Of a DNA stretch of 64,000 nucleotides, positions 26,675-41,589 are shown piece by piece; position 1 is the stretch's first letter, and each line of letters starts with the position of its first letter. The notes under the pieces are model-generated. The model was not told the origin of the DNA. It saw only the letters and a program-made list of their open reading frames with translations, and did no database searches. Origin of the DNA: Nitrospirales bacterium (GTDB lineage Bacteria; Nitrospirota; Nitrospiria; Nitrospirales; UBA8639). A program made the translations under genes and the position numbers. The stretch is taken from contig BQIV01000003.1 of NCBI GenBank assembly GCA_021604005.1, positions 62,001 through 126,000 of the forward strand, given 5' to 3'.

Positions 26675-26726
26675 TGTCTCAATTTAGATCACTCGTTCGT
26701 TGTATGCGGTGTGACGAAATAGGTCT
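26675..26726 (+). promoter_or_regulatory. Tandem 17-bp activator-like boxes, module A
   Basis: TGTCTCAATTTAGATCA (26675-26691, the weakest copy) and TGTGACGAAATAGGTCT (26710-26726) start 35 bp apart. The second box is nearly identical to those at 32832 and 40550. Confidence 0.65.
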
Positions 26727-26781
26727 GCGGGCTGCGGCCTCTCTTCACTCGTTACATTTCTTTTGCAGAATTCTTCACGAG

Positions 26782-26794
26782 AATCAATGTGTTT
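26782..26794 (+). promoter_or_regulatory. IHF-like site, module A
   Basis: AATCAATGTGTTT matches WATCAANNNNTT and differs only at the final R. It sits in a block (ATTTCTTTTGCnG...ATTCTTCACnAGAATCAA) nearly identical in modules B and C, and starts 52 bp before the -24 GG. Confidence 0.55.
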
Positions 26795-26830
26795 TCTTCA
26801 TTGCATGCATGATGGTTTGTCGTGATCGTT

Positions 26831-26849
26831 CACGGCATTCATGTTGCTA
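26831..26849 (+). promoter_or_regulatory. Sigma-54 promoter, module A
   Basis: The 19-mer CACGGCATTCATGTTGCTA, identical in modules B and C, has GG (26834-26835) and GC (26846-26847) with N10 spacing. It lies 133 bp upstream of the secreted-protein operon. Confidence 0.8.
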
Positions 26850-26981
26850 TATCTCTGTAAAAGGAATCAGTGACGGAGCGGCTCCATAGTCTACGAAGAA
26901 ATCAAAATATCAGGAAAGGTGTCTCGGGAACGTTTGAGGCAATGTTGAAGTTACAAAAATAATTCAGGAAGGAGTTATCCA

Positions 26982-27695
26982 ATGAAAACCAGAATGTGGT
27001 TTATGGTTCCCTTAATCTTGGGAGTATTGTTTGGCTGTACAGAGAAACAGCTTGGACAGATTTCTCATCTTGTGAATACCCACGTTACGGAGAAACAACC
27101 TGGGGGAAATTCCAATCTTGAGAAAGCCCACGTCGTCACTCAGGGAACACACACAACATTTTCAAACAGTGTTGCCCAAGAAATTGCGGCGCTCGATGAC
27201 TATTTTTCAACGCTTCAATATTCGATACAGGCGAGTGGCACATCTCTAAGCAAGAAAGACCAAAAGACCATGAAATCGGCAAAGACCGTCTCTCAAAAAG
27301 GGAAAACGTTACAAAAGAAGGGGAACTCCTACCACGCCCTTCAAAAAGTTCGGACTGCTAAACGGATGATGAAACCAATGATGAAGAAGCTTTGGACGCT
27401 TGGCGATAAAAGAGCGATTTTAGGTCTTGTGAACCAACAAATCGGCGTCGTAAAGCAGCGACATCGTGAGCTGGAAGACCTTGTCGCGCTGAGCAAGGTG
27501 AAATCCAGGAAGGCAATCAATGCTCAACATCGATCGAAAGAGTTGGTCAATGAGGCGAACATGCTTCGCAAGAATGGAAAGCTTCGTCGGGCCTATGTGC
27601 AAAGTGAAGAGGCATTGAAGGCATTAGATATGGCCATCGCCGTCGTTTGGCGTGACCGCAATAGTGTAACCAAATCCCAACCTACAAGGAGGTAA
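26982..27695 (+). CDS. Lipoprotein with helical Lys-rich body
   Basis: First gene of the sigma-54-linked secreted operon. The signal sequence ends in lipobox LFGC (Cys19), so the protein should be lipid-anchored. A 16-residue tandem duplication follows (TEKQLGQISHLVNTHV then TEKQPGGNSNLEKAHV). The rest is helical and strongly basic (QKGKTLQKKGNSYHALQKVRTAK, ALDMAIAV), about 237 aa in all. No family recognised. AAGGAG precedes the ATG, and the next gene starts 3 bp after the stop. Confidence 0.82.
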   Translation: MKTRMWFMVPLILGVLFGCTEKQLGQISHLVNTHVTEKQPGGNSNLEKAHVVTQGTHTTFSNSVAQEIAALDDYFSTLQYSIQASGTSLSKKDQKTMKSAKTVSQKGKTLQKKGNSYHALQKVRTAKRMMKPMMKKLWTLGDKRAILGLVNQQIGVVKQRHRELEDLVALSKVKSRKAINAQHRSKELVNEANMLRKNGKLRRAYVQSEEALKALDMAIAVVWRDRNSVTKSQPTRR

Positions 27696-27698
27696 ATC

Positions 27699-28037
27699 AT
27701 GAAAACTCACACACTTATTCTCGGTCTTGTTGCCTGTGCTGTTTTGTCAGGAAATGGCGTCGTGTTTGCTCAAGAATCTGAGAGCGGCTTCCAGGAGCGA
27801 GGCTCTGGGAAGTTAAAGAAAATGGATGCCGATCGTGACGGGAACATTTCGTTAGACGAGTACTTAGCTATGGCCGAACACCGATTTGGGCAAATGGATG
27901 CCAATACGGACGGATATGTCACGGCGGACGAACTGAAAAACGGACGAAAAGCGGTGCGTGCCAAGAGTCGTGAGCGACGTGGAAAACGTCAAGCAGGCAA
28001 GATACAGAATAAGGCAGTAGACGGTGAGATGCCGTGA
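27699..28037 (+). CDS. Secreted EF-hand protein
   Basis: A 112-residue exported protein. The signal peptide (LVACAVLSGNGVVFA|QE) precedes two canonical EF-hand loops, DADRDGNISLDE (about 44-55) and DANTDGYVTADE (about 67-78), and a basic tail (RAKSRERRGKRQ). It should bind calcium outside the cytoplasm. AAGGAGG precedes the ATG, and it is tightly coupled to the lipoprotein gene. Confidence 0.9.
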   Translation: MKTHTLILGLVACAVLSGNGVVFAQESESGFQERGSGKLKKMDADRDGNISLDEYLAMAEHRFGQMDANTDGYVTADELKNGRKAVRAKSRERRGKRQAGKIQNKAVDGEMP

Positions 28038-28112
28038 CAAGAAACGTAGTTTTGCATTTGCAGTACATAGTGGACTTGTCACGGTTTTAAGGAAGAAATA
28101 GGAGAATTGGTT

Positions 28113-28658
28113 ATGCGATCTATATTGAAAACTGGCGTGCTGATGCTCTGTCTTAGTGTTGTGTTTCTTTTTCCGCTGACAGGGTTTTCACAAGATTCGT
28201 TCTCTCAAGAACAGGCCGATAGAGAGACTAAGCGCTGTGCTGATTCCCGCGACGGGTGCCTTGGAGCAGCGGCTGGTTTTGGAGTAGGGATTGTCGGACA
28301 ACTCAAGCCTTGTAAGGCGCTCCGTGAATGTAAAAAAGAATGCCGGACAGAAAAGCGCGATTGCAAGAAAGACGCTCGAAGTGACAAGAAAGACTGTAAG
28401 CAAGACTGTAAGGACCGCTTGGGGAGTGGCAAAGCATTCCGTGATTGTAAAAAAAGTTGCAGGGAGGATAAGAGAGACACCAAGAAAGACTGCCGGGAAG
28501 AAAAGCGGGAGTGTAAAAATATTTGCCGCGGAACGTTTAAGACTCCTGAATGCAAACGAGCTAAGAAGGTGGCCAATAGTTCTGCTGTAGTGGGAGTCCC
28601 AGCTTGTGCCGCCTTTGTTGCATGTATTTCACAAAGTCAAAAGAGCGACACGCAGTAA
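28113..28658 (+). CDS. Secreted Cys/Lys/Asp-rich repeat protein
   Basis: Not recognised. A signal peptide (LSVVFLFPLTGFS|QD) is followed by a core of two similar units of about 32 residues: one beginning ALRECKKECRTEKRDCKKD and one beginning AFRDCKKSCREDKRDTKKD. Cys spaced CxxxC alternates with long Lys/Arg/Asp/Glu runs, suggesting disulfide-linked charged helices. The ATG at 28113 is chosen over a TTG at 28107 because GGAG lies 8 bases upstream. The DsbA-like protein two positions later fits its need for disulfides. Confidence 0.8.
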   Translation: MRSILKTGVLMLCLSVVFLFPLTGFSQDSFSQEQADRETKRCADSRDGCLGAAAGFGVGIVGQLKPCKALRECKKECRTEKRDCKKDARSDKKDCKQDCKDRLGSGKAFRDCKKSCREDKRDTKKDCREEKRECKNICRGTFKTPECKRAKKVANSSAVVGVPACAAFVACISQSQKSDTQ

Positions 28659-28681
28659 TTTGTAGATTATTAAGAGAGTGA

Positions 28682-28713
28682 GGCACGGCCTCGTATCCAC
28701 GGGGCCGTGTGCC
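28682..28713 (+). terminator. GC-rich stem-loop inside the secreted operon
   Basis: GGCACGGCC pairs with GGCCGTGTGCC (one bulge) around a 12-base loop. No T-run follows, so it is more likely an attenuator or mRNA-stability element than a full terminator. Confidence 0.35.
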
Positions 28714-28819
28714 AATGCAAATAGGCATCGCTTCAAAGGGGGCGTCAATGTAATGGAATGGGCTGCATAAGTTAAGCAGCAGCAAAAGAGAAATTCTAGA
28801 AACAGGGAGGGATAGCAAT

Positions 28820-29668
28820 ATGAAACTCAAATTACTTTCTATGATAGGGGCGTTTTTCTGGATTCTTTCCATAAGCATTTCTGGAGTCAATGCGCAAGTA
28901 ATAACATCTGTCTCAGACAAGGAGACCTTGAAAGCTGAGTTGACAGCGGTGGTGAAATCCGTGCTTCGAGAACATCCAGAAGTAATTCTTGAAGCATTGG
29001 AGGAAAAGCCAGTCGCATTGGCGAATCTTGTTCAACAAGCAGCGATAGAAAAAGCCGTGAGGGTCAAGGAAGAGCAGCGTCGAACTGAGCTGAAGAATCC
29101 AAAGGTGGCAGATATTGATGTGGAGCGTCCAATTCGTGGGAATCCACAGGCATCCATCACCATCGTGGAATACAGCGACTTTGAATGTCCGTTTTGTGGT
29201 TCGGCGTCTTCTACGGTCAAACAAGTTTTGGAACAGTATGGAGAAGATGTTCGCTTTGTATACAAGCATAACCCGTTAAATTTTCATCCAATGGCTGAGC
29301 CTGCTGCCAGATATTTTGAGGCGATTGCCATGCAAGATGTAGAGGAGGCTTGGCGTTTTCATGACTTGGTTTTTGAACAACAGGAACTGCTTACCGATGG
29401 AGAACCTGTTTTGAAAGCCATCGTGGCGTCATTGAATATCGATGAACAGAAATTAGAACAAGACCTCAAAGGCGACACAGTTGAGCAGCGTCTCTACCTC
29501 GATCGAGAAGAGGCCGCCAGATTTGGTTTTGATGGAACGCCAGCATTCTTGATTAATGGTGTGTCCTTGATGGGGAGTCAACCAATGGAAGATTTCCAAG
29601 AGATTATTCAGATGTTCATGTCAGAAAAACATCACAATAATCGCCTCGCGGCTTCGAATGGTTCTTAG
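28820..29668 (+). CDS. Secreted DsbA-like thiol oxidoreductase
   Basis: A signal peptide is followed by a helical region (about 30-95) and a thioredoxin-fold DsbA domain with active site CPFC in YSDFECPFCGSAS (near residue 120), helical insert, and cis-Pro loop DGTPAFLING. It resembles the DsbA/Com1 family with an N-terminal dimerisation-like extension. It probably forms or isomerises disulfides in the Cys-rich neighbours of the same operon. That link is inferred from context. Strong ribosome site GGGAGGG. Confidence 0.92.
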   Translation: MKLKLLSMIGAFFWILSISISGVNAQVITSVSDKETLKAELTAVVKSVLREHPEVILEALEEKPVALANLVQQAAIEKAVRVKEEQRRTELKNPKVADIDVERPIRGNPQASITIVEYSDFECPFCGSASSTVKQVLEQYGEDVRFVYKHNPLNFHPMAEPAARYFEAIAMQDVEEAWRFHDLVFEQQELLTDGEPVLKAIVASLNIDEQKLEQDLKGDTVEQRLYLDREEAARFGFDGTPAFLINGVSLMGSQPMEDFQEIIQMFMSEKHHNNRLAASNGS

Positions 29669-29713
29669 AATCCGTGGCTCAATTTCTAGATCATTTGTAT
29701 TAGGAGAAAACTC

Positions 29714-30682
29714 ATGAAAAAAATAATTCTTATCCTACTGCTTATCCTCCTAGTTACGCCCGTGCATGCAAAAAAGTTTAAAGTGAAAAATTGCGACTCG
29801 TCTTCTATGGCTGACATCAATTGGGCCGTTGATTTTATCGACAACAATATTGATGAAATGCTAGCCGAGGCGACATTTATCCCAGGTAAATACAAGGATA
29901 AGATTAAGAAGAAATGGCCTTCTACAACCCTTAAATGTTCGAAAAAGAAAAAGTGCAGTGGTGATACTATGGGATATCACAAAAAAGGAAGTGGGAATAA
30001 GTTCAATCTCTGCTGGGATCAAATACGAGATTTTAATCAGACTCGCTGTGAGTTAGTCGGGATTCTCATGCATGAAAAGGCTCACGCGGCCAATGTTCCA
30101 ATTGAAAAAAAACATAATGATATGAACGCATACTCCTATGTGAGCAATGTGGACTTGGTATATCGCTTTGATGATGTTGTGGAGAACGTTTGTACGAGGA
30201 AGTCTGACCCAAACTATGTGCCAACGGGTGCGACCAAGACTGGGGGAGATATCGTTGAGTCTGGACGAGCCGGCAAGCTTGCATTGGATCAGCTCTGCTC
30301 GGAGCATACGCAATGTGCTTCCAGTAAATGCGGAAAAGGAAGGTGCGTGTGTGACGATAACAACGATTGTGGTAGCAAGTCACGGTGCATCAAGAAGATT
30401 GGCAAGAATTATTGTGTTCCGACCGGAGGAATAATCGGTGATTTTTGCAAGAAAAATTCTGACTGTGGCATCGGTAAATGTGAAAAGAAAAGTTGTGTCT
30501 GTAAAAAAGACACGGACTGCCGAACTAGTTTTGGTTCGACCAATTTTAGGTGTGCAAAGCCTGGTCTCGGTTTTGGAAAGAATTTTTGCCAACCAACTTC
30601 TGTATCGAACGGAGGTGCCTGCGCAAAAAACTCAGACTGTAATAGTGGTAAATGTAAGAAGAAGAAATGCGTGAGCAAGTAA
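29714..30682 (+). CDS. Secreted HExxH protein with Cys-rich repeats (paralogue 1)
   Basis: After a signal peptide ending near VHAKKF, the N-terminal domain (about 25-170) contains MHEKAHAANVP, an HExxH zinc motif, followed by KKHNDMNAYSY, in the spacing expected for a zincin with a downstream His or Asp ligand as in aspzincins. The C-terminal half holds three repeats of the form CxxxSDC...KCxxxxCVC. It is paralogous to the protein at 31501: both share KYKDKxKKKWPxTTLKCSK. Metallopeptidase activity is inferred, not shown. TAGGAG precedes the ATG. Confidence 0.8.
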   Translation: MKKIILILLLILLVTPVHAKKFKVKNCDSSSMADINWAVDFIDNNIDEMLAEATFIPGKYKDKIKKKWPSTTLKCSKKKKCSGDTMGYHKKGSGNKFNLCWDQIRDFNQTRCELVGILMHEKAHAANVPIEKKHNDMNAYSYVSNVDLVYRFDDVVENVCTRKSDPNYVPTGATKTGGDIVESGRAGKLALDQLCSEHTQCASSKCGKGRCVCDDNNDCGSKSRCIKKIGKNYCVPTGGIIGDFCKKNSDCGIGKCEKKSCVCKKDTDCRTSFGSTNFRCAKPGLGFGKNFCQPTSVSNGGACAKNSDCNSGKCKKKKCVSK

Positions 30683-30764
30683 TGAGCAACAAACAGGTAA
30701 GAGAGCCTTAGCTATCAATCTAAAAATCCGAAGCAATACGGATTGAATTCAAGGAGAAACCATC

Positions 30765-31214
30765 ATGAAACGGACGATATTAATAGGCGTGGTGTTTATA
30801 GTAGGTCTTTCAATGGCAGTGATTCAGAACGTCGATGCTCAGACAATGTGTCAGGGACAGGCCGCGACGATTGTTGGCAATGACTTTGATAATGTTCTTA
30901 TTGGAACTCCAGGCAACGATGTGATTCATGGTCTTGGAGGAAACGATATCATCGAAGGTAGAAATGGAAATGATATTATTTGCGGTGGCGAAGGTGCCGA
31001 CAGTATCTTTGGTGACCGTGGTGATGATGCGATCAGAGGCGGGCCTGGGAACGATAACCTTAGAGGGAATGCTGGCACGGACAATATTAATGGAGGAGAT
31101 GGAAACGATATTCTTCGGGGAGGGGCTGGCCCAGATTTACTTGATGGTGGCAATGGTCGTGATGACTGCAACCGGGGCACTGGGAACAATCCTGCGGCAC
31201 TGAACTGTGAGTAG
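30765..31214 (+). CDS. Secreted RTX/hemolysin-type calcium-binding repeat protein
   Basis: A 149-residue protein with an N-terminal Sec signal (GVVFIVGLSMAVIQNVDAQ) and about nine GGxGxDxhx nonapeptides from GNDFDNVLIGTPGND to GGNGRDD, which fold into a calcium-bound beta-roll. RTX proteins usually leave by type I secretion; here a Sec signal is present and no type I exporter is adjacent. A Cys-containing tail (CNRGTGNNPAALNCE) could form one disulfide. Confidence 0.92.
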   Translation: MKRTILIGVVFIVGLSMAVIQNVDAQTMCQGQAATIVGNDFDNVLIGTPGNDVIHGLGGNDIIEGRNGNDIICGGEGADSIFGDRGDDAIRGGPGNDNLRGNAGTDNINGGDGNDILRGGAGPDLLDGGNGRDDCNRGTGNNPAALNCE

Positions 31215-31373
31215 TGAAGGGTGCATATTGTGTAGAGCTAGTAGGTACAAGAACGGAGGGCTGGTCTTTAATGAAATGTTCTCTTCACATTGTCTGCAAC
31301 ATATTTGGGAGTCAATTCGAGCATGGAACAGGCTAGTGAATACATTTATAGACTGTGTGTTATGGAATAACAA

Positions 31374-31402
31374 CTGACAAAGCGATTTATCGATACTATA
31401 AG
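31374..31402 (+). promoter_or_regulatory. Candidate internal sigma-70 promoter
   Basis: CTGACA, 17 bases, TATAAG, about 100 bp before the second HExxH gene in a 286-bp gap. It could allow expression of that gene independent of the upstream sigma-54 promoter. Confidence 0.5.
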
Positions 31403-31500
31403 AGCATGTCTGAATGGGGGCGAGGCTGAAGGAGCCAAAATTAATCAGCAAGACTCTCACGAATGATGGCTCATTTGTCGAAAGTTAAGGAGAATATGTG

Positions 31501-32472
31501 ATGAATCCCAAAATACTTCTTACGAAATGCGTTATAGCACTGATGATCATGTGTTTAAGCGCTCCTGTTATTGCCGCAGACAAAATTAAGAATTGTTCAG
31601 AAAAAGAAGACAAGACAGCGTTGGAAAATGCTAATAGGTTCATCACTGAGCATTTGGATAACTTCCTTGCAACGAGTGCGTCCTTTTTGGCAACGAAATA
31701 TAAGGATAAGATGAAGAAGAAATGGCCAAAGACAACACTGAAATGTTCGAAGAGAGATAAATATTGTGAGCGCAGGGATTTCCAAGCGTTTCAGGGTTCT
31801 AGTAATACGATTAAATACTGTACTGAAGTGTTTGATCTTTCCTGGGCAGAACTTTGCACCACTGTGGGCCTTACTGTGCATGAGTTAGGTCATGTGGCAA
31901 ATATTCCCATTCATGCTCGCCATGATCATGCGGACCTGTATGCTAAAACAATTAGCTCTGGAAAAGCTGATCTGGTTTGGAGACTAGAAAAAGAGATGAA
32001 GTCCTACTGTTGGGAAACGATTAATACGGGATCGAGCCCGAGTGTTGCTCCAGTGAGCAGTGGTGAAATTGGAACGAAATGTAAGAAGAATTCGGACTGC
32101 AACTCAAAAAAATGCCAAGGCAAAGGTGCCGTGCGCGAATGTGTTTGCGCAGATAATGATGACTGTGACGGGAGTGCTCGTTGCAAAAAGCGTTTAGGAA
32201 AGAATTACTGTATCGCAAAGGGAACGGGGCCTGGGGATTTTTGTAAAAAGAATAGGGATTGCGATATTGGAGTTTGTCAGAAGAAAAGTTGTGTGTGTAA
32301 AACCGATAAGGATTGCAAAAGTTTTTATTCCAACATAAGTGACATTCGATGCGTCAATCGGGTGGGGAAGAATTTTTGTCAAGAGACGAAACAGGATGCA
32401 GGCGAATCATGTCATAAAAATTCTGATTGTACCGGCAACTTAAAATGTAAAAAGAAAGCGTGTAGTAGTTAG
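31501..32472 (+). CDS. Secreted HExxH protein with Cys-rich repeats (paralogue 2)
   Basis: 323 residues; the signal peptide ends near PVIAADK. The domain shared with the protein at 29714 includes KYKDKMKKKWPKTTLKCSK and the zinc motif VHELGHVANIP, followed by HARHDHADLYA with candidate third ligands. The C-terminal half repeats CKKNSDCNSKKC / CKKNRDCDIGVC / CHKNSDC units. The motif HELGH is a better zincin match than HEKAH in the paralogue. AAGGAG precedes the ATG at 31501; an in-frame GTG one codon earlier is less likely. Confidence 0.82.
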   Translation: MNPKILLTKCVIALMIMCLSAPVIAADKIKNCSEKEDKTALENANRFITEHLDNFLATSASFLATKYKDKMKKKWPKTTLKCSKRDKYCERRDFQAFQGSSNTIKYCTEVFDLSWAELCTTVGLTVHELGHVANIPIHARHDHADLYAKTISSGKADLVWRLEKEMKSYCWETINTGSSPSVAPVSSGEIGTKCKKNSDCNSKKCQGKGAVRECVCADNDDCDGSARCKKRLGKNYCIAKGTGPGDFCKKNRDCDIGVCQKKSCVCKTDKDCKSFYSNISDIRCVNRVGKNFCQETKQDAGESCHKNSDCTGNLKCKKKACSS

Positions 32473-32796
32473 CGTTTTTAACTTTTGCAATATAAGCCAC
32501 CTCTTCAGAAAGCCACAGGGTATTCAGATGCAGAATGGACTATATGCAGTATGTCAGTCGAGAGGGAACAGAATGGCAGCACATCAATAGCCTGCATGCC
32601 GTGATTCGTGAAGTCGAGAGTACTCAACAGAGATCTTCACGGTTCGACAGGACTACTGTACATGGTAAGCCTGTCGGACCGTACTTATTCTATATGTCTG
32701 ACAATATCCTTTTTAATTCCTTGATAAAATTAACTGTATAAGTCAAGACTTCATCTGACAGACAGCGAGTCCTCTTTCTATTTCAACGCCTCCAAC
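32473..32796. other. Intergenic region before module B
   Basis: No gene supported. A 68-codon plus-strand frame (32535-32741) starts without a ribosome site and has no protein character. Confidence 0.45.
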
Positions 32797-32848
32797 TGTC
32801 TCACATTGAGTCACCTTCTGCTAGATGCCGCTGTAACGAAATAGGTCA
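32797..32848 (+). promoter_or_regulatory. Tandem 17-bp activator-like boxes, module B
   Basis: TGTCTCACATTGAGTCA (32797-32813, a near-palindrome) and TGTAACGAAATAGGTCA (32832-32848) start 35 bp apart. Confidence 0.7.
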
Positions 32849-32904
32849 GCAGAAGTTGGAAGTCTCTTTCCCGTTTCATTTCTTTTGCTGCAATTCTTCA
32901 CAAG

Positions 32905-32917
32905 AATCAACGTGTTC
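32905..32917 (+). promoter_or_regulatory. IHF-like site, module B
   Basis: AATCAACGTGTTC matches WATCAANNNNTT with a mismatch only at the last base. It is preceded by the small palindrome ATTCTTCACAAGAAT and starts 52 bp before the -24 GG. Confidence 0.55.
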
Positions 32918-32953
32918 ACATAATGGAATGCGTGACGGCCTGCCATGATTGGC

Positions 32954-32972
32954 CACGGCATTCATGTTGCTA
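32954..32972 (+). promoter_or_regulatory. Sigma-54 promoter, module B
   Basis: CACGGCATTCATGTTGCTA, identical to modules A and C. GG 32957-32958, GC 32969-32970. Confidence 0.8.
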
Positions 32973-33052
32973 TCTATGTATCAAGAGAAACTATCTAAGA
33001 GTGCCTTTCTGAAGATAGTTGTCAATCCGAGTCTGTCGCCAAGGAGGGTATC

Positions 33053-33154
33053 TTGGATACTATTCATCACAAACAATCAACTACATTGAGACGTACATCG
33101 ACACAATTGCATATTGATGATGTGTGCATCGAAGAATTGAATAGGGGTGAATAA
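33053..33154 (+). CDS. 33-aa leader protein coupled to the giant gene
   Basis: A TTG start with AAGGAGG about 6 bases upstream opens a 33-codon frame (MDTIHHKQSTTLRRTSTQLH to EELNRGE) whose TAA overlaps the ATG of the 1018-aa gene as TAATG. The strong ribosome site and the stop-start overlap indicate translational coupling. The product is hydrophilic and unrecognised. It may be a genuine small protein or only a device to set translation of the downstream gene. Confidence 0.55.
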   Translation: MDTIHHKQSTTLRRTSTQLHIDDVCIEELNRGE

Positions 33155-36100
33155 TGGCTAAGCAGAAACAAACGAATCTCACAGTGTCTCGTGTCCTGTT
33201 AGAGTCCCTGGTGCCGAGAAAAATGCCAGTTAATGAAGAATACCAATTGGTTCGTCCCGATGATCAACTTCATCTGCGCTTCCAATTGATTAACGGTGAA
33301 GTCGATCGAAGCAGCAATACTATCGTCGGCCTCAAAGGCGAGGAACCCATCTATTATGCAATCTGGCTAGGTCCTCAACATCGAGTGGAAGCGCCGATTA
33401 CTCCTGGCGGCATGCCCAAAGATTTTGCCGGTGCTAGTCGCATTGCCGGGGAGTCTAGGATTGTGGTTGAAATTCCGAACGGGACGCCTTTTACCGTTGC
33501 GACACTGCTGGATCTGGCTGCGTATGCGTTAGTTTTGGATGATCGTGCCTTGCCCGAGGCTAAGCCAAATGATCTGGAGCCGGATGCCTCAGTGACGGCC
33601 ATTGAAGTGCCCACTTCTCTGGTTCTTTCCCCAACCACGGGCAATCGATTTGTTGCCGGAACCCAGGCAATCACCCATGGTGATGTCACTGAGTTGTGGC
33701 GTGCCCGCCTGGGTCGTGTTGTGGGCAACAGGGTCATTGAACCACCGCGACGGGAGGTGAAGGCGCGAGCCATCTGGCAGCGGCCAGAGGATCCGGGATT
33801 TGTTCCGCCGCGACCTCTTGACCATGATGACCGGAGATTGCTGGTGGAGCAAACCACTGGTGAAAAATCCCAGCCCATTTCAGTCAAGCAATTGTGGTTA
33901 TCCTCCCAAGGCGCTTTTTTCGATGCCGAAGGGGAATGGGCCGAAGGTACACTGACTGCTTATCGGCAGCGAGTTATCACCGGACGAGATTTGCATGTGG
34001 AAGTCGTTAAGCGCGGTTATCTCACGCCCTTTGGTCACCCAGCCAGTATTACGACACTGACAGAGAGGCAGTTTCTTAAAGATGAATCCGGTGAAACGAC
34101 GGCTGTTCTGATTTCGGAAGATTTTCTCACTATCGGCGCTGGAGAGGTTTGCCTGGATTCTGATTCAATCCCATTTATTCCCTACCAGGGCAGGGGCACT
34201 CCTTTTGTGAAAGTAACCGCCTCTGACTCCGGTTCTGGTGAGATAGGTGCACGGCAGGTTGTATTAGCTAACGGCGCTAACATTACAATTGATAAGGGCT
34301 ACGTACTTACCCGCGGCGGTGAGGATCTGCGTATCGCCTTCAGCGCTACTGACCGCAGTGGACAGGAAGGTATCTGCTTCGAAATGCCCACAGTCTTTAT
34401 TACCGAAGATGTAGCCTACCAGTCTGGCAAAAAAACCGCGTTGAATAAATTAAACAAGTGGTTTGACGAAAGGGGAAACCAGGATTTCGTCACTGCTGGG
34501 CTGAACTCTCAACCCATTGCTTGGGCCGACCCTCCCGAGGGGAGTATTAGCAACCGTGCCGGCTCGGTGCAAACGACCACCAGTATTTGCTTTGGCCTAG
34601 ACTTGCCGGGTTTACACACAAACGATCCCGTCGATGTAGAAGCTGAACTTGAAGCCAGTGGCCGCCCTGCCTTTTATCCGGCCGTGCGCAGCGCTCGAAT
34701 TGTAGATTTGGCTGTTAGTACAAATTACGGCGGTGCCTCACCTGAATTAGAAGTCAATATTGCTCAGCGCTATCTTGAGCATGGTTCCGGAGACAACAAT
34801 ATCGATCTTGGTTATCTTGATTTGCCAACCCCTAATGTCGTGATACCAACGACAGAAGCGACGGGCATGATGTCTCTGGGGCTGAAGGTCGCGACCTTCG
34901 GCCAGCGAACAGGCGGTGGTATCGATTTCTCCGGTGGCACCTGGGATCCTGCAGATGCACTGGCGGAGCTGTTTGACGGGTTTCCCAAACTGCTGGGAGC
35001 CATTAACCTAGCCGACATTATCAGCAGCATCGAAGATCTCAGCTTGGACTTGTCAGACCGTGGGCTACCCACCATGTCGGTCGAGCCGATTGTTACCGAC
35101 AATGGTATCCCTAGCGGAGCCTGTTTCCATTTTCAGTGGGAGCCGGAAATACATTCTTTTCCTAAAGAAGGAGACAAAACCTTTGTGGTCACCGCCGACT
35201 TTGGCGGCGGGGAAGAAGAAAATGATGAGGATAAGATGTCGGAGATTCCGGCCAACTCGTTCGGGGTTCGCGAAACCCGGGCGCTGTTAGATATCCGTAC
35301 TTGCACCGATGGCACCCAGACATTTGAAGTGTCACTGGAACGCTTTGCTCTGCTCGTGCCGCCGAAGATACCGGTTGTGGCGTTGTTGTTTGAACGTTTG
35401 CGTTACCGCAATGTGCAGAACAACGGGTCAGCTACCGCAGATATTAGTGATTGGTTTTTCATTAACCAGCTCGGCTGGCTGGAACCAGTGAAGGACTTGT
35501 TGCTGGATGTGCTGGGTTTGGGCACCCCGATGTTTGAAGGCGGTATCTTTATAGACTTTGATTTGCCGCTACCAGGCTTAACGCTTGGAGTTGTGGGTAT
35601 CCACGGCATTCAGTTGGGATTGGACATCAATATGCCAGACAGTGGCGCAAGTTCACTCGGGTTCGCCCTTTCATCTCAAGAAGACCCCTTCATTGTCACC
35701 ATTATGGGTTTTGGTGGTAATGGGTCGTTTTCGTTGGCGCTGGACTCTAAAAAAATCGTGTACGTCAAAGGCAGCACAGCCGTGATGTTTGAACTTGCTG
35801 TTAATGTCTTTGTGGTCTCGGCGGCGGTTTCAGTCTCGTTGGGCACATTCATTATATATGAAGTCAACAAGCAGGACCAAGGGGAAGTCACGCTGGGTGC
35901 CTATGCGACGGTGGCTGGCGCTATTTCTATTATTGGTCTGGTAAAAATTTCCGGAGCCGTGACTGTCGCCCTTATTTACAACGTCACCACCAAAGTCTTA
36001 CGCGGTGTGGCTTCGGTAACCGGCGAGGTGAGTGCGGTGGTATTCAAAGGCACAGCCACCCACGATGTAGAGGTCAAGGTCGCACTGGGGGACGATTCAA

Positions 36101-36210
36101 ACAAGGCTAGGCGCTTGGCGGCATCGGCTGGTAGCGACAACTCAGCCTCATTCGGTGATCGCTACTCCTCTCCTCAATGGGATCAATACTGTAAAGCGTT
36201 TGCGGATTAA
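33154..36210 (+). CDS. Giant protein of unknown function, 1018 aa
   Basis: Not recognised. There is no signal peptide. The first two-thirds look beta-rich with many short charged loops (QLVRPDDQLHLRFQL, SVQTTTSICFGLDLPG, GGGEEENDEDK). Residues about 780-960 are hydrophobic and Gly-rich (LTLGVVGIHGIQLGLDINMP, VFVVSAAVSVSLGTFIIYEV, ISIIGLVKISGAVTVALIY), possibly a membrane-interacting or pore-like beta/hairpin region. Its coding sequence looks more GC-rich than the secreted operon upstream. It is followed 19 bp later by a second giant gene, so the pair probably works together. Confidence 0.8.
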   Translation: MAKQKQTNLTVSRVLLESLVPRKMPVNEEYQLVRPDDQLHLRFQLINGEVDRSSNTIVGLKGEEPIYYAIWLGPQHRVEAPITPGGMPKDFAGASRIAGESRIVVEIPNGTPFTVATLLDLAAYALVLDDRALPEAKPNDLEPDASVTAIEVPTSLVLSPTTGNRFVAGTQAITHGDVTELWRARLGRVVGNRVIEPPRREVKARAIWQRPEDPGFVPPRPLDHDDRRLLVEQTTGEKSQPISVKQLWLSSQGAFFDAEGEWAEGTLTAYRQRVITGRDLHVEVVKRGYLTPFGHPASITTLTERQFLKDESGETTAVLISEDFLTIGAGEVCLDSDSIPFIPYQGRGTPFVKVTASDSGSGEIGARQVVLANGANITIDKGYVLTRGGEDLRIAFSATDRSGQEGICFEMPTVFITEDVAYQSGKKTALNKLNKWFDERGNQDFVTAGLNSQPIAWADPPEGSISNRAGSVQTTTSICFGLDLPGLHTNDPVDVEAELEASGRPAFYPAVRSARIVDLAVSTNYGGASPELEVNIAQRYLEHGSGDNNIDLGYLDLPTPNVVIPTTEATGMMSLGLKVATFGQRTGGGIDFSGGTWDPADALAELFDGFPKLLGAINLADIISSIEDLSLDLSDRGLPTMSVEPIVTDNGIPSGACFHFQWEPEIHSFPKEGDKTFVVTADFGGGEEENDEDKMSEIPANSFGVRETRALLDIRTCTDGTQTFEVSLERFALLVPPKIPVVALLFERLRYRNVQNNGSATADISDWFFINQLGWLEPVKDLLLDVLGLGTPMFEGGIFIDFDLPLPGLTLGVVGIHGIQLGLDINMPDSGASSLGFALSSQEDPFIVTIMGFGGNGSFSLALDSKKIVYVKGSTAVMFELAVNVFVVSAAVSVSLGTFIIYEVNKQDQGEVTLGAYATVAGAISIIGLVKISGAVTVALIYNVTTKVLRGVASVTGEVSAVVFKGTATHDVEVKVALGDDSNKARRLAASAGSDNSASFGDRYSSPQWDQYCKAFAD

Positions 36211-36229
36211 AGAATCAACGGAGGATCCA

Positions 36230-39200
36230 ATGCCAGAACAACATCTCTTACCTGTGGCCCTACCCCGAGGTCGAGGACTGAACGAAGAGGGGCAGAACAT
36301 TGGAAAGATTACAATATATTTTTCACCTCGTCTAAAAGACGAAGATGTGCTCTTAAATTATCCAGAATGGCTGAATTGGCCGGAAATGCTTGATCGCATG
36401 AATGTCCGTTTGCGATTGATGGATAGCGGCAATTCTGAATGGGTGAGTTTGACGCGAGTTAGTGACGAGCCCGATCCAAACAAGTGGGAAAACTTGTTCG
36501 CAGCGAGCACGCCGGTTGAACCCCACCGCTTTGTGGATTGGTCTGCGGCGCCGTTGCAAACTGTGGCAAGCAGCGATTTTGATGAAGCTATTTTGGATAT
36601 GTATACGCGTATAGCAGTCGCTCACCCTAGTCAGCCACCGTCGGATGTTGATGTGTTTTCCATCCCTCAAGCACGTCAACTCACTCGTGCCGTCGAGCAG
36701 GCTATAGATTATCTGCAGCCCATGCACAGTGAAGAAACTGAACGGAAGGGAGAGGTCGCTGACCCGGAGTGGGATTTTCATGCCTATGTCTCACTTTTGG
36801 GCGGTCATCCAGAATTGTTACGGCATCTAGGGATCGCGGTGGATTATGAGTTTGTCTTTCCCGATACCGTGAAAGTACCCACGGCCGTTGCGGTTCAGAC
36901 GACCTATCCAGACAGGGTGATGAACGGGCCAGGCAGAGAAATCCGACTGATGACCAAGACCACCGATGCATTCTTTGCCGAACCGAATCCGGTTGCAGAT
37001 TTTCACGAACAGTCAGAAGGGTTTCTGGAGCTGCGTAATCAGAAAGCTTATCTATCCATATTGGATTCCTATTCAACGGCTACCCGACTGACGGACCTGG
37101 ATGGTCAGCAGGGCCAAATCGAAGAATCGGTTCCGGCGTTGATCACCAGAGCGTTGACCTTGGTCCGACCAGACCTTGTGAAGACATTCGAAAATCGCAC
37201 CGCCAGACAGGCTCAGATTGAGAAAGAAATCGGTACCCAGCTGGATCCTAACACACCGCCCAAAGATCGACAGCCGGTGGTGTTGTATGCTGAGGATGTT
37301 ACGATAGGACATCGGATAGATGTCTTGCGAAAAGAATCCTCAGGCTTCCAGTGGCGTAGCCTGTTCGATCGAAAAACCGATGCCAACGGCTACCAATTTA
37401 CTCGCGTTATCGATGGATCCTTGAATGTCCACCCGGATCCGGATGAAGGTTGGGCCCAAACCCTGTTGGTGACAGAATTGGAAGAAGATTTGTCTTCACA
37501 GATTAATAAAGACGACAAAGAGGTGCCACTTATACCCTATGCCTTACGGCGTCTTGATGATCAGCTGTATCGCTGGGATGGTTGGAGCGGTGCAGTCAGA
37601 CGACCGGGCTGCGTTCTGAATGGTGTGAAAGGAAGTGCCACCGACGTAGAACCGCAACTGCCGGTCAATGACACGGATGTGGTGCAATTCGCCGCGAACT
37701 ATGAGGTCGTGCCGTGCACTCTCCCGCAGCTTCGCTTCGGAGATGCCTACATCATGCGGGCTCGCTGCGTCGATCTGGCAGGGAACTCAGTTGGTCTCGA
37801 CGCGGTCAGTCCTGAAAAAACTGAAACAGATCCAAAGACCTTTGGACGTCTGGAACCAATTGCCGCACCGTTTATTGTACGACGCTCAGAACGTCCCATC
37901 CCAGGGGTGGGCGATGACGCGCTCACGGTCGTTCTCTTGGGTGATTATGACATTGACGACAAGACCGTAAAAGGCCAGGAGCGTCTGTTGTTTCCTCCAC
38001 GGGTTGGGCAGGATTTGTGCGAACTGCACGGAGAACCAGCCGGAGGAGTAGAACCAGCCAGCTATGATGAGTTGAAACGTCGCGATGCCAGGGAACCTGA
38101 GGATCATTGGAACGTTGATCCCGTAACGAGTGAACCGATTGCCCAAGGCGACGAGCATCAAGTCATCGAGTATTTATCAGATCCCCTGGTGGGCAATCTT
38201 CACTGTTATCGTTGGGGCCCCAAGGGTGGTGAATATGTGGCGGACATGACTGGTGCCTGGCCTTCCACCGAGTCGGCCCGTATTGAAGTGATCGCTGGTG
38301 ATCCAGATACCCTAGTGAATCCAGATTCGACGACTGAGTTTCGATTCACCATATCCAAGGCCGACATTGTGGCTGTGGATTTCAGCTATGCACCAAGGCA
38401 TGGCAGTGCGGATGAATTCGGCCTATGGCATCGAGCCAGCCCGGAAGAGCAGGACGACTTGCGCCCGATTATTGAGCGTGGAGGCCACTGGATGTTCTCA
38501 GCCCGTCGACCAGTGAAGATGGTTTACGCGGTGCGCCGACCATTGCTTGCACCGGATTTTGAGGACGACGATGGGACGCCTGTACCCAATCGAAGTGTAG
38601 ATGATACCGGGGTCGAATTCGGAGCTACGTTCATAATTGATCGAAGATCTACCAGTTCGGTGACCTTGCGCGCCAGCTGGACTGATTTGATTGATGATGT
38701 CCGTCTGGACGCGCCCGCAACCGTTTCAGGAGGTGCCCGGCTTGGTCGCTTCGAGACACTTCGAAAGGCTGACTCGGAATGCCTCACATACACTATAGCC
38801 AACCACCGGGCTGAATTAGGAGACACCAGGCGTCATTATGCCCGTCTGCATCTTGAAGCCTTTAGTTATTTCAGCAGTTACTTTACCGAAGAACGGGTCG
38901 TGCGAATGGTTGGCGACGCTGTCATGATTGATGAGCGGGGCCTGGCCGATGGGACGGTCACGGTACGTCACGGGAAAGAGAACCTTGAGGCGGAACTTGG
39001 CAAAGACTTTGAAGTGCTGGGTTCTAAAGGCATGATCAAAACCATTCGTGGTGGGGCCATTAAACATGGCGACCAGCTGACCGTGCGTTATATTCCATTG
39101 CCTATTAGTCGCACCAATGAAAAGCTTCCGGCTGTTTATGTCATCTTTCCAAACACGGCAACACCTCCACCGCCTCAGATTGATTCTGTCATTCCAGCGG

Positions 39201-40006
39201 CAGCCCGGGATGTGCAAGAACATTCAATCAGCCACGATGGTCGTCTGCTGCGTGTCTATTTACAACGGCCGTGGCATGTGTCCGGAGATGGCGAATCTCT
39301 GGCCGTATTGATCGAACGGAATCCCATCGGTGTTTCCAACGCTAGCCGATTGGGACGAGATCCTGCCGTCACCAATGCCAATATTCTTCAGACCTTGGCC
39401 CCTTCGGCTTTTCCACGGGTTCATTCTGTTGTGGAGAACTACGATGGCAGCCACGACCTGGCACTTCATAAGGTAGAGTACGATGCTGTCAGTAAACGCT
39501 GGTTTGCTGACATTGCGGTGGCGACTGAACTCTATCGGCCGTTTGTGCAACTCGTGGTTGCTAGGTATCAGCCAGATTCGATCACTGGGAAACACCTGAG
39601 TCCCTCAGTCACTCTAGAGCCATTTAGGTTAGGCGTTTCCCGTCAGGTCGAATTGCAGCAAAATAATGATGGGTTCAACATCACTGTTACAGGTCGTGAA
39701 CATGCCGGGATTCCCGTCCTGGAGAAACCTCAAGGGCAGAATGAAGTAGCCGTGACCGTACAAGAGGCAGACCCTGATCTTGCTGATCAAGACCTGCGTT
39801 GGATTACGGCAATCAACACGGCCACACTTGCTCGCGTTGCTGGACCAGACGGAAGCAGTTGGAGCGGGCAGTTGTCAATTAACAATTCCACAAGACCACA
39901 GCGTTTATTGATTGAGGAGTCTGAGCCGGCCTTGTTTGGTGGCGAGAAGCCGAGTCTGACCAGTCATGTGGTTTATTCTGAAGTGATGGTATTGCCGAAA
40001 AGTTAA
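36230..40006 (+). CDS. Giant protein of unknown function, 1258 aa
   Basis: Not recognised. The ATG at 36230 follows CGGAGGATCCA, a strong ribosome site 19 bp after the previous stop; a longer frame to 36155 overlaps that gene and is rejected. The protein lacks a signal peptide, is acidic, and reads as a chain of beta-sandwich-like segments with Pro-rich joints (FPNTATPPPPQIDSVIP), including CVDLAGNSVGLDAVSPEK, a phrase typical of Ig-like or fibronectin-like domains. No catalytic motif was seen. It may be a structural or scaffold partner of the 1018-aa protein. Confidence 0.8.
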   Translation: MPEQHLLPVALPRGRGLNEEGQNIGKITIYFSPRLKDEDVLLNYPEWLNWPEMLDRMNVRLRLMDSGNSEWVSLTRVSDEPDPNKWENLFAASTPVEPHRFVDWSAAPLQTVASSDFDEAILDMYTRIAVAHPSQPPSDVDVFSIPQARQLTRAVEQAIDYLQPMHSEETERKGEVADPEWDFHAYVSLLGGHPELLRHLGIAVDYEFVFPDTVKVPTAVAVQTTYPDRVMNGPGREIRLMTKTTDAFFAEPNPVADFHEQSEGFLELRNQKAYLSILDSYSTATRLTDLDGQQGQIEESVPALITRALTLVRPDLVKTFENRTARQAQIEKEIGTQLDPNTPPKDRQPVVLYAEDVTIGHRIDVLRKESSGFQWRSLFDRKTDANGYQFTRVIDGSLNVHPDPDEGWAQTLLVTELEEDLSSQINKDDKEVPLIPYALRRLDDQLYRWDGWSGAVRRPGCVLNGVKGSATDVEPQLPVNDTDVVQFAANYEVVPCTLPQLRFGDAYIMRARCVDLAGNSVGLDAVSPEKTETDPKTFGRLEPIAAPFIVRRSERPIPGVGDDALTVVLLGDYDIDDKTVKGQERLLFPPRVGQDLCELHGEPAGGVEPASYDELKRRDAREPEDHWNVDPVTSEPIAQGDEHQVIEYLSDPLVGNLHCYRWGPKGGEYVADMTGAWPSTESARIEVIAGDPDTLVNPDSTTEFRFTISKADIVAVDFSYAPRHGSADEFGLWHRASPEEQDDLRPIIERGGHWMFSARRPVKMVYAVRRPLLAPDFEDDDGTPVPNRSVDDTGVEFGATFIIDRRSTSSVTLRASWTDLIDDVRLDAPATVSGGARLGRFETLRKADSECLTYTIANHRAELGDTRRHYARLHLEAFSYFSSYFTEERVVRMVGDAVMIDERGLADGTVTVRHGKENLEAELGKDFEVLGSKGMIKTIRGGAIKHGDQLTVRYIPLPISRTNEKLPAVYVIFPNTATPPPPQIDSVIPAAARDVQEHSISHDGRLLRVYLQRPWHVSGDGESLAVLIERNPIGVSNASRLGRDPAVTNANILQTLAPSAFPRVHSVVENYDGSHDLALHKVEYDAVSKRWFADIAVATELYRPFVQLVVARYQPDSITGKHLSPSVTLEPFRLGVSRQVELQQNNDGFNITVTGREHAGIPVLEKPQGQNEVAVTVQEADPDLADQDLRWITAINTATLARVAGPDGSSWSGQLSINNSTRPQRLLIEESEPALFGGEKPSLTSHVVYSEVMVLPKS

Positions 40007-40514
40007 ATAATGTCTAATCGAAAAGTGATTGTTCTACTAATCAGGAATTCATAATAAGGTTAGAGAGCGTTGATTTCAGTGCTGTCATTCATAAGATGAA
40101 ATGCCCGATGATTGCTTAGTTTGTCGCTGGCAATAGCAAAGGCACGATTGGGAAAGATGTCTTCATGTTTATTGTTGTTGACAAAGCTTACTGTGGTCGT
40201 ACTGGTATGGATGTATTTAATTGTCTTAGGAGAGAGTAGAGTACTGGTGCTTCCGTATCGACCAGATTTGGCACCTACTCCTATAACCTGCGTGGCTATT
40301 TATACGGGAGAGCTCTGACTAATTAACGAACCTATAACTGTACCTAACAATTTACAATTGCGGATGTAACACATGCGGCGATTGGCAATGACATGTATGT
40401 GGCTGCATTATTCGTATGTATTTTCTCTGCCTGCAAATATATTTCTTGTTCAACTGACAAAGATCATTTCATATCTGACCTCATGAATCCTCTGGCCATC
40501 TCAAGATCTCCCAC
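40007..40514. other. Intergenic region with possible decayed coding remnants
   Basis: Three broken plus-strand stretches read as protein-like fragments (GTIGKDVFMFIVVDKAYCG near 40.14 kb, STRFGTYSYNLRGYLYGRAL near 40.26 kb, TIADVTHAAIGNDMYVAALF near 40.36 kb), each ended by stops and in different frames. They suggest a degraded gene but cannot be joined confidently. Confidence 0.25.
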
Positions 40515-40566
40515 TGTCTCCAATTGAGTCACTTCCTGATGGATGCTGCTGTGACGAAATAGGTCT
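40515..40566 (+). promoter_or_regulatory. Tandem 17-bp activator-like boxes, module C
   Basis: TGTCTCCAATTGAGTCA (40515-40531) and TGTGACGAAATAGGTCT (40550-40566) start 35 bp apart. Confidence 0.7.
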
Positions 40567-40622
40567 GCAGACCGCTCCGTTTCTTACCCTATTTTATTTC
40601 TTTTGCTGCGATTCTTCACAAG

Positions 40623-40635
40623 AATCAACGTGTTC
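40623..40635 (+). promoter_or_regulatory. IHF-like site, module C
   Basis: AATCAACGTGTTC, preceded by the perfect palindrome GATTCTTCACAAGAATC. It starts 43 bp before the -24 GG. Confidence 0.55.
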
Positions 40636-40662
40636 ACCATCATGGATAGCATCACGTTTGAT

Positions 40663-40681
40663 CACGGCATTCATGTTGCTA
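40663..40681 (+). promoter_or_regulatory. Sigma-54 promoter, module C
   Basis: CACGGCATTCATGTTGCTA, identical to modules A and B. GG 40666-40667, GC 40678-40679. The leader to the next recognised gene is about 245 bp and includes a 25-codon ATG frame (MANGKVAVSASYFMMGSLCP...) without a clear ribosome site. Confidence 0.8.
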
Positions 40682-40926
40682 GATGTCTTATTAAGGGAAT
40701 CCAGCGGAAGTATGAGATCACACGTATTCTAAAGCCCTGGCTCTGGTGGATGGGTAAGCCTTAACGGTGAATGTCAAAAAGGACATGAACAATTTTGTGG
40801 ATAGATGAGCGCGACATGGCAAATGGAAAAGTAGCAGTCAGTGCATCGTACTTTATGATGGGTTCCCTCTGTCCAACTCATGATGAAGTCTAACCTTAAG
40901 GACAGAAACAACAAGGAGGTCGTGTC

Positions 40927-41589
40927 ATGAAAAGCATTAATCAAAAACAATCAACCAGCATGAGTCCTAAAGTGGCCGTCATAGGAGCTTTGGTTTTAGC
41001 TCTCAGTGGCGCCGTGAGTCACGCTGAGACGTACTGCTACGATTTCAGTAATTTTGCGAGTACGGGCTACGAGGTAGGAGATACGATCTCTACCGCGCAT
41101 GGGGATATTAACCTTCTGGAAGTGTTTGATGAAAACCTGAATCCGATGCTCCCGAACCCGAGTGGGTTAACGAGTCATAATAATGTCCCCATTCCTGGTC
41201 AGGGAGAAAACCCCTCGTTGTTTAATCACGGTGGATTCACTATCCAAGTCGTGCCAAACAGTCCCATGTTGGCCGTGACCCTGAAATTCGCCGAAAACAC
41301 CGGGGCTACTGATCAACAATTATGGAATTTTGGTGTCAATAATGAACGGCAAATTTGGAGAGGACAATTGTCTACTCTCGATGGACAATCTCTTGGTGAA
41401 CCAACATACGGAGGACGTGTACGGATTGCGGTCGGTGGCGTGCAAATGCCTGATTCTTACTGGGTCCGTGGCATGGTGACGCTGGCCTCTGATCCCGTCA
41501 ATCCGCTGTTGCCCAATAGAGGCATCGAAAGATTTTCATTTGGACGGAGCAGTCAACTTATCGTAGATGATGTTTGTATGACGGAATGA
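40927..41589 (+). CDS. Exported protein of unknown function, 220 aa
   Basis: First clear gene after module C. The signal peptide runs to LSGAVSHA|ET (about residue 36), followed by a beta-rich secreted domain (YCYDFSNFASTGYEVGDTIS to QLIVDDVCMTE). Two Cys near the ends (YCYD and DDVCMTE) could close the domain. The pattern of FSN..., GGFTIQV and RFSFGRSSQLIVDD resembles lectin-like or PEP-CTERM-associated jelly-roll domains, but no anchor motif is present. AAGGAGG precedes the ATG. Confidence 0.82.
   Translation: MKSINQKQSTSMSPKVAVIGALVLALSGAVSHAETYCYDFSNFASTGYEVGDTISTAHGDINLLEVFDENLNPMLPNPSGLTSHNNVPIPGQGENPSLFNHGGFTIQVVPNSPMLAVTLKFAENTGATDQQLWNFGVNNERQIWRGQLSTLDGQSLGEPTYGGRVRIAVGGVQMPDSYWVRGMVTLASDPVNPLLPNRGIERFSFGRSSQLIVDDVCMTE

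Follow-up and report, generated by a model that had tools for sequence, protein, structure and literature searches.

A Widespread Pair of Adjacent Giant Genes from a Nitrospirales Bacterium and Its Possible Role as a Two-Protein Complex of the Cell Envelope

Two Giant Genes in the Window

What do two adjacent bacterial genes make when both encode giant proteins and neither resembles a known family? This question is raised by a locus in the window, i.e., the whole 64,000-nucleotide stretch of DNA analysed here. Gene A (33154..36210, + strand) is an ATG-initiated open reading frame (ORF) of 1018 aa, which consists of the family core and carries no N-terminal signal. Gene B (36230..40006, + strand) encodes 1258 aa, and its ATG at 36230 lies 19 nt behind the stop codon of A. 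Starting B at an in-frame GTG (36155) would lengthen it to 1283 aa; the ATG was taken as the start since it aligns with the conserved start of the family. Both ORFs stand where the initial annotation placed them, and family and signal scans bore out its view that neither giant has a signal peptide or a recognisable catalytic motif. For the two proteins, no credible match above the cut-off was obtained in Pfam, NCBIfam, PHROGs, PADLOC, or the PDB (sequence search). No known enzyme or toxin family matched A or B, and a profile-profile comparison detected no homology between the two. No described giant pair was found in the literature searched.

The A-B Pair as a Family

Distant pairs in Nitrospirota were first recovered by single-sequence searches. 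A three-sequence alignment of B then gave 69 loci in the GTDB collection, spread over more than ten phyla; those with the pair include Actinomycetota, Pseudomonadota, Cyanobacteriota, Chloroflexota, Acidobacteriota, and Nitrospirota. In 3 of these loci the contig starts inside B; in every one of the other 66, B is immediately preceded by A on the same strand. Fragmented copies were found in L047, L087, and L090. Across 71 pairs the A-B gap has a median of 12 nt and is 50 nt or less in 82%, while three actinobacterial pairs show a gap of about 2 kb. A WD40-repeat gene (714–943 aa) lies between A and B in the actinobacterial loci L068, L072 (where it fills the ~2-kb gap), and L074, and two tandem A-B pairs occur in Nocardia abscessus (L083).

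The GTDB collection was searched with B, and the converse was covered by searching 396 Nitrospirota genomes and plasmids with A. Among the 396 genomes, separate profile searches with A and with B (a 25-row alignment for the latter) returned the same three genomes, and every A examined on plasmids has a giant neighbour downstream. The window A matches the family A profile across the whole core (hmm 2–1060), and the window B, directly downstream on the same strand at a gap of 19 nt, matches the family B profile (hmm 1–1285). The claim that the two giants belong together was thus upheld: the co-occurrence analysis found no case of A and B apart in the loci, Nitrospirota genomes, or plasmid regions examined, and no clear match to an enzyme family appeared. 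We conclude that the pair is genuine and widespread and that the family libraries searched do not contain it.

The trees of A and B also correlate (mirror-tree r 0.87; permutations reached at most 0.26), and co-inheritance alone would produce such a correlation as well. Phyla are intermingled in the B tree and its Nitrospirota members are scattered; for instance, B of Nitrospira sp. BO4 shares 70% identity with that of Caballeronia telluris. Judged from these sequences, horizontal spread is likely, though bin contamination is possible. The position of the window B, whose branch is the longest in the tree, is uncertain.

Predicted Structures of A and B

Models were constructed with AlphaFold2 using alignments of 63 and 65 sequences, in which plasmid rows were left out. 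The model of A gave a pLDDT of 81 and a pTM of 0.67, and that of B residues 1–1200 gave 83 and 0.72, respectively. B was modeled as a mixed α/β N-terminal part followed by serial β domains, in agreement with the serial β-sandwich arrangement proposed for it in the initial annotation. Foldseek searches of A and B against the PDB, and of A against viral models as well, gave no meaningful TM-score, and fold assignments were dropped since nothing confident emerged. The remote-homology and structure-prediction checks on both proteins, accordingly, yielded no known family and no confident fold match.

A distinctive part of A comprises residues 797–977 (35542..36084, + strand), for which nine strands were predicted that exceed those in the rest of A and in B in both length and amphipathicity. 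Their mean length is 13.8 residues and their face difference is 3.61, compared with 9.4–9.9 and 1.48–2.17 elsewhere (p about 0.001). The region is an amphipathic sheet in the model and could belong to a barrel, form the core of a sandwich, or serve as a lipid face. Relatives of ~2500–3300 aa on Rhizobiaceae and Ruegeria plasmids have it as well. Membrane contact had been suspected for the C-terminal part of A, and a long amphipathic β-meander is compatible with this idea but does not prove such contact. A conserved tail, W..YC.AFA, follows at the extreme C-terminus (36178..36201, + strand). In B, the poorly conserved insert at residues ~886–961 (38885..39112, + strand), which was modeled with low confidence, weakly resembles Ig-like domains of phage tail proteins (E 0.005–0.008, far below the curated cut-off).

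Targeting Signals and N-Terminal Variation of A

A strict scan detected a Tat-type signal in 11 of 62 A proteins, compared with a mean of 1.6 and a maximum of 5 in shuffled sequences, leaving about four fifths of A without a signal. The strict Tat scan found none in 70 B proteins, and the same kind of scan for Sec-type signals was likewise negative for all 70. Inspection by eye added Tat signals missed by the strict scan on A of L056, L057, L058, L061, and L118, and one more is present on A of L112. These signals are distributed over several phyla and occur on distant giant relatives as well, but the twin-arginine signal is absent from the window A. Three loci also have an adjacent tatA-like gene, which immediately precedes A in L031 and L038 and closely follows the pair in L117. 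LysM was found at the start of A in L087 and DUF346 (lectin-like) repeats in L080 and L088, and 13 long A proteins have in common an N-terminal domain of ~450 aa, mostly behind a Tat signal, which has no Pfam match. The N-terminus of A hence varies by lineage (Tat signal, lectin-like repeats, LysM, or a Pro/Tyr-rich tail), while its core is constant.

The Tat signals on A, the flanking tatA genes, and the LysM and lectin-like domains point to an envelope location with A as the targeting subunit. Among the functions suggested initially, a surface scaffold is the one that these features fit best, although they come from relatives and not from the window A. Since the latter has no signal, the export step is not directly applicable to the window pair.

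The Upstream Region

An intergenic module of roughly 200 bp was detected in three copies, all on the + strand within 14 kb and each fronting a cluster: copy 1 (26710..26866) is ahead of a secreted-protein cluster at 26982–32472, copy 2 (32767..32989) is ahead of A-B, and copy 3 (40485..40688) is ahead of a gene at 40927. The repeated module described before A-B is therefore real in this island. Elsewhere in the same genome nothing beyond chance was found, and one further weak match came from a congener. No Rfam family matched the region, and the window contains no tRNA.

The cluster before A-B encodes lipoprotein-like, EF-hand, and DsbA-like proteins, two Cys-rich HExxH proteins, and an RTX-repeat protein, all predicted to be secreted. 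The HExxH motifs were read by eye, and metallopeptidase-like proteins are among the predicted products of the cluster. These secreted-looking paralogues (29714–30682 and 31498–32472) are 44% identical, contain HEKAH and HELGH motifs, respectively, and have a Cys-rich part that is repeated in relatives of the same family. The shared module reflects common ancestry of the upstream regions, from which co-expression does not follow. Its position in front of three clusters suggests shared regulation and an extracellular context, and its presence before both A-B and the predicted secreted proteins suggests that they may act in the same compartment.

The upstream region further contains a 33-codon TTG frame (33053..33154, + strand), which had been taken as a leader coupled to A. 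Such a frame is indeed present, preceded by AAGGAGG and joined to A by TAATG, but its coupling to A was not supported. On the + strand of the window, 42 frames of 25–60 codons have a Shine-Dalgarno-like site, and shuffled sequence yields 36.6. In module copy 1, the counterpart reads CTC where the start codon would be and is terminated after four codons, and A possesses a ribosome site of its own, AGGGGTG, a few nucleotides before its ATG. Owing to the chance-level frequency, the lack of conservation, and this separate site, the coupled leader was rejected; the frame is probably a chance one.

A Proposed Complex of the Cell Envelope

We propose, with a probability of about 45%, that A and B are obligate subunits of one large, β-rich, and apparently non-enzymatic complex at or outside the envelope, to which A targets the assembly and B hitchhikes. 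A would be the targeting and anchoring subunit with an interchangeable N-terminus and a constant core, and its C-terminal amphipathic sheet and W..YC.AFA tail would constitute the conserved working end. Where A has a Tat signal, B may be carried out in folded form, in complex with A, via the Tat hitchhiker route. In other heterodimers, a partner lacking a signal is known to be exported in this way (PMC10924467). The universal adjacency, the matching trees, the Tat signals on A only, the flanking tatA genes, and the spread over phyla argue for this proposal, as do the LysM and DUF346 domains on A of some loci and the lysozyme-like, M23, or peptidoglycan-binding proteins near five pairs. That most A copies, including that of the window, have no recognisable signal and that the fold searches gave no confident match argue against it. 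From these data we infer that A and B interact physically, that hitchhiking occurs, that the complex is located at the envelope, and that its role is structural or in binding, not catalytic. It is also conceivable, though tentative, that the pair represents an undescribed two-protein envelope machine across many phyla, with an interchangeable targeting module on one giant, piggyback export of the other, and a fold or assembly without solved relatives.

Neighbouring Genes and Alternative Roles

Genes next to the pair vary between lineages, and the themes given below are raw recurrences, in which the names of cell-wall hydrolase domains were partly assigned by eye. Lysozyme-like, M23, or peptidoglycan-binding proteins lie near the pair in five loci (L045, L046, L049, L074, and L081), and FG-GAP and WD40 propellers and BTAD regulators also recur. 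A gene for a Tle1-like lipase is located 39 nt behind B in L039, and annotated phospholipases are near L093 and L115.

The main live rival of the envelope complex is a two-component antagonistic system or effector, in which A attaches to a target membrane or inserts into it, B serves as a receptor-binding or scaffold component, and neighbouring hydrolases are cargo or partners. The cell-wall hydrolase-like proteins and lipases described above would suit this role, as would the long amphipathic strands in A, the sporadic spread over phyla, and the location of distant plasmid pairs near annotated dpdE/dpdF, SIR2, and HsdR-like genes. However, no toxin domain or PADLOC match was found, no candidate immunity gene recurs beside the pair, and the neighbours depend on lineage. 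We consider the antagonistic role unlikely.

The distant plasmid pairs (L113–L118, Rhizobiaceae and Ruegeria) consist of A relatives of 2500–3300 aa with giant partners, located near the annotated genes listed above or near tatA (L117). They resemble the family in that their A-core and C-terminal sheet regions match the A profile, a giant partner that mostly matches the B profile lies directly downstream, and several have a Tat-type signal. They differ in the length and long insertions of A, which is split in two in L116, and in that two partners no longer match B. These giant pairs are also undescribed.

A cytoplasmic giant assembly or scaffold, with a minority of derived, Tat-bearing versions, would account for the plain N-terminus of the window A and for the lack of a signal in most A and all B. 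It is nevertheless improbable in view of the Tat signals in several phyla, on distant giant relatives, and on A of L112, of the tatA genes, LysM, and lectin-like domains that accompany the pair, and of the predicted secreted proteins surrounding the window cluster.

A lipid-binding or lipid-transfer complex, in which the strongly two-faced sheet of A is a lipid-holding face, agrees with a weak Foldseek list that mixes outer-membrane barrels, LptD, triglyceride transfer protein, and apolipoprotein B. The TM-scores of these matches are, however, near 0.1 with mostly low probability, and any long antiparallel sheet would attract them, which leaves this reading quite improbable.

Least probable is a phage-tail-like or contractile injection machine, hinted at by the sub-cut-off tail-protein hits in the B insert, LysM on one A, and the terminase-like ORF near the L111 pair, as no phage family otherwise matched, none of 50,697 phage records matched the pair, usually just two genes are present, and no sheath, tube, or baseplate occurs among the 25 commonest families listed for 70 scanned neighbour proteins. 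A phage origin was similarly rejected, the pair being present in only two IMG/VR contigs. One of these is L111, where the terminase-like ORF was recognised by eye and the copy may be prophage-linked.

Comparison with Known Systems

An obligate pair of 1000–3000-aa proteins that spans many phyla and is missing from every family library searched represents a sizeable annotation gap. Should the complex pass through Tat in a folded state, it would rank with the largest candidate Tat hitchhiker complexes. The proposal can be tested in cultured hosts such as Pseudomonas japonica, Streptomyces, and Cyanobium. Compared with bacterial giant surface proteins as a general class, A-B is alike in size, β-richness, and the glycan-binding modules of some members, and it differs in being an obligate two-protein unit in which neither a Sec signal nor a cell-wall anchor was found. 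Tat hitchhiker heterodimers such as Ni-Fe hydrogenases and formate dehydrogenases (PMC10924467) likewise have a signal on one subunit, adjacent genes, and a partner presumed to be exported folded. Unlike these, A-B is far larger, has no cofactor or redox domain that was found, and includes many signal-less pairs, and its co-export is one that we infer.
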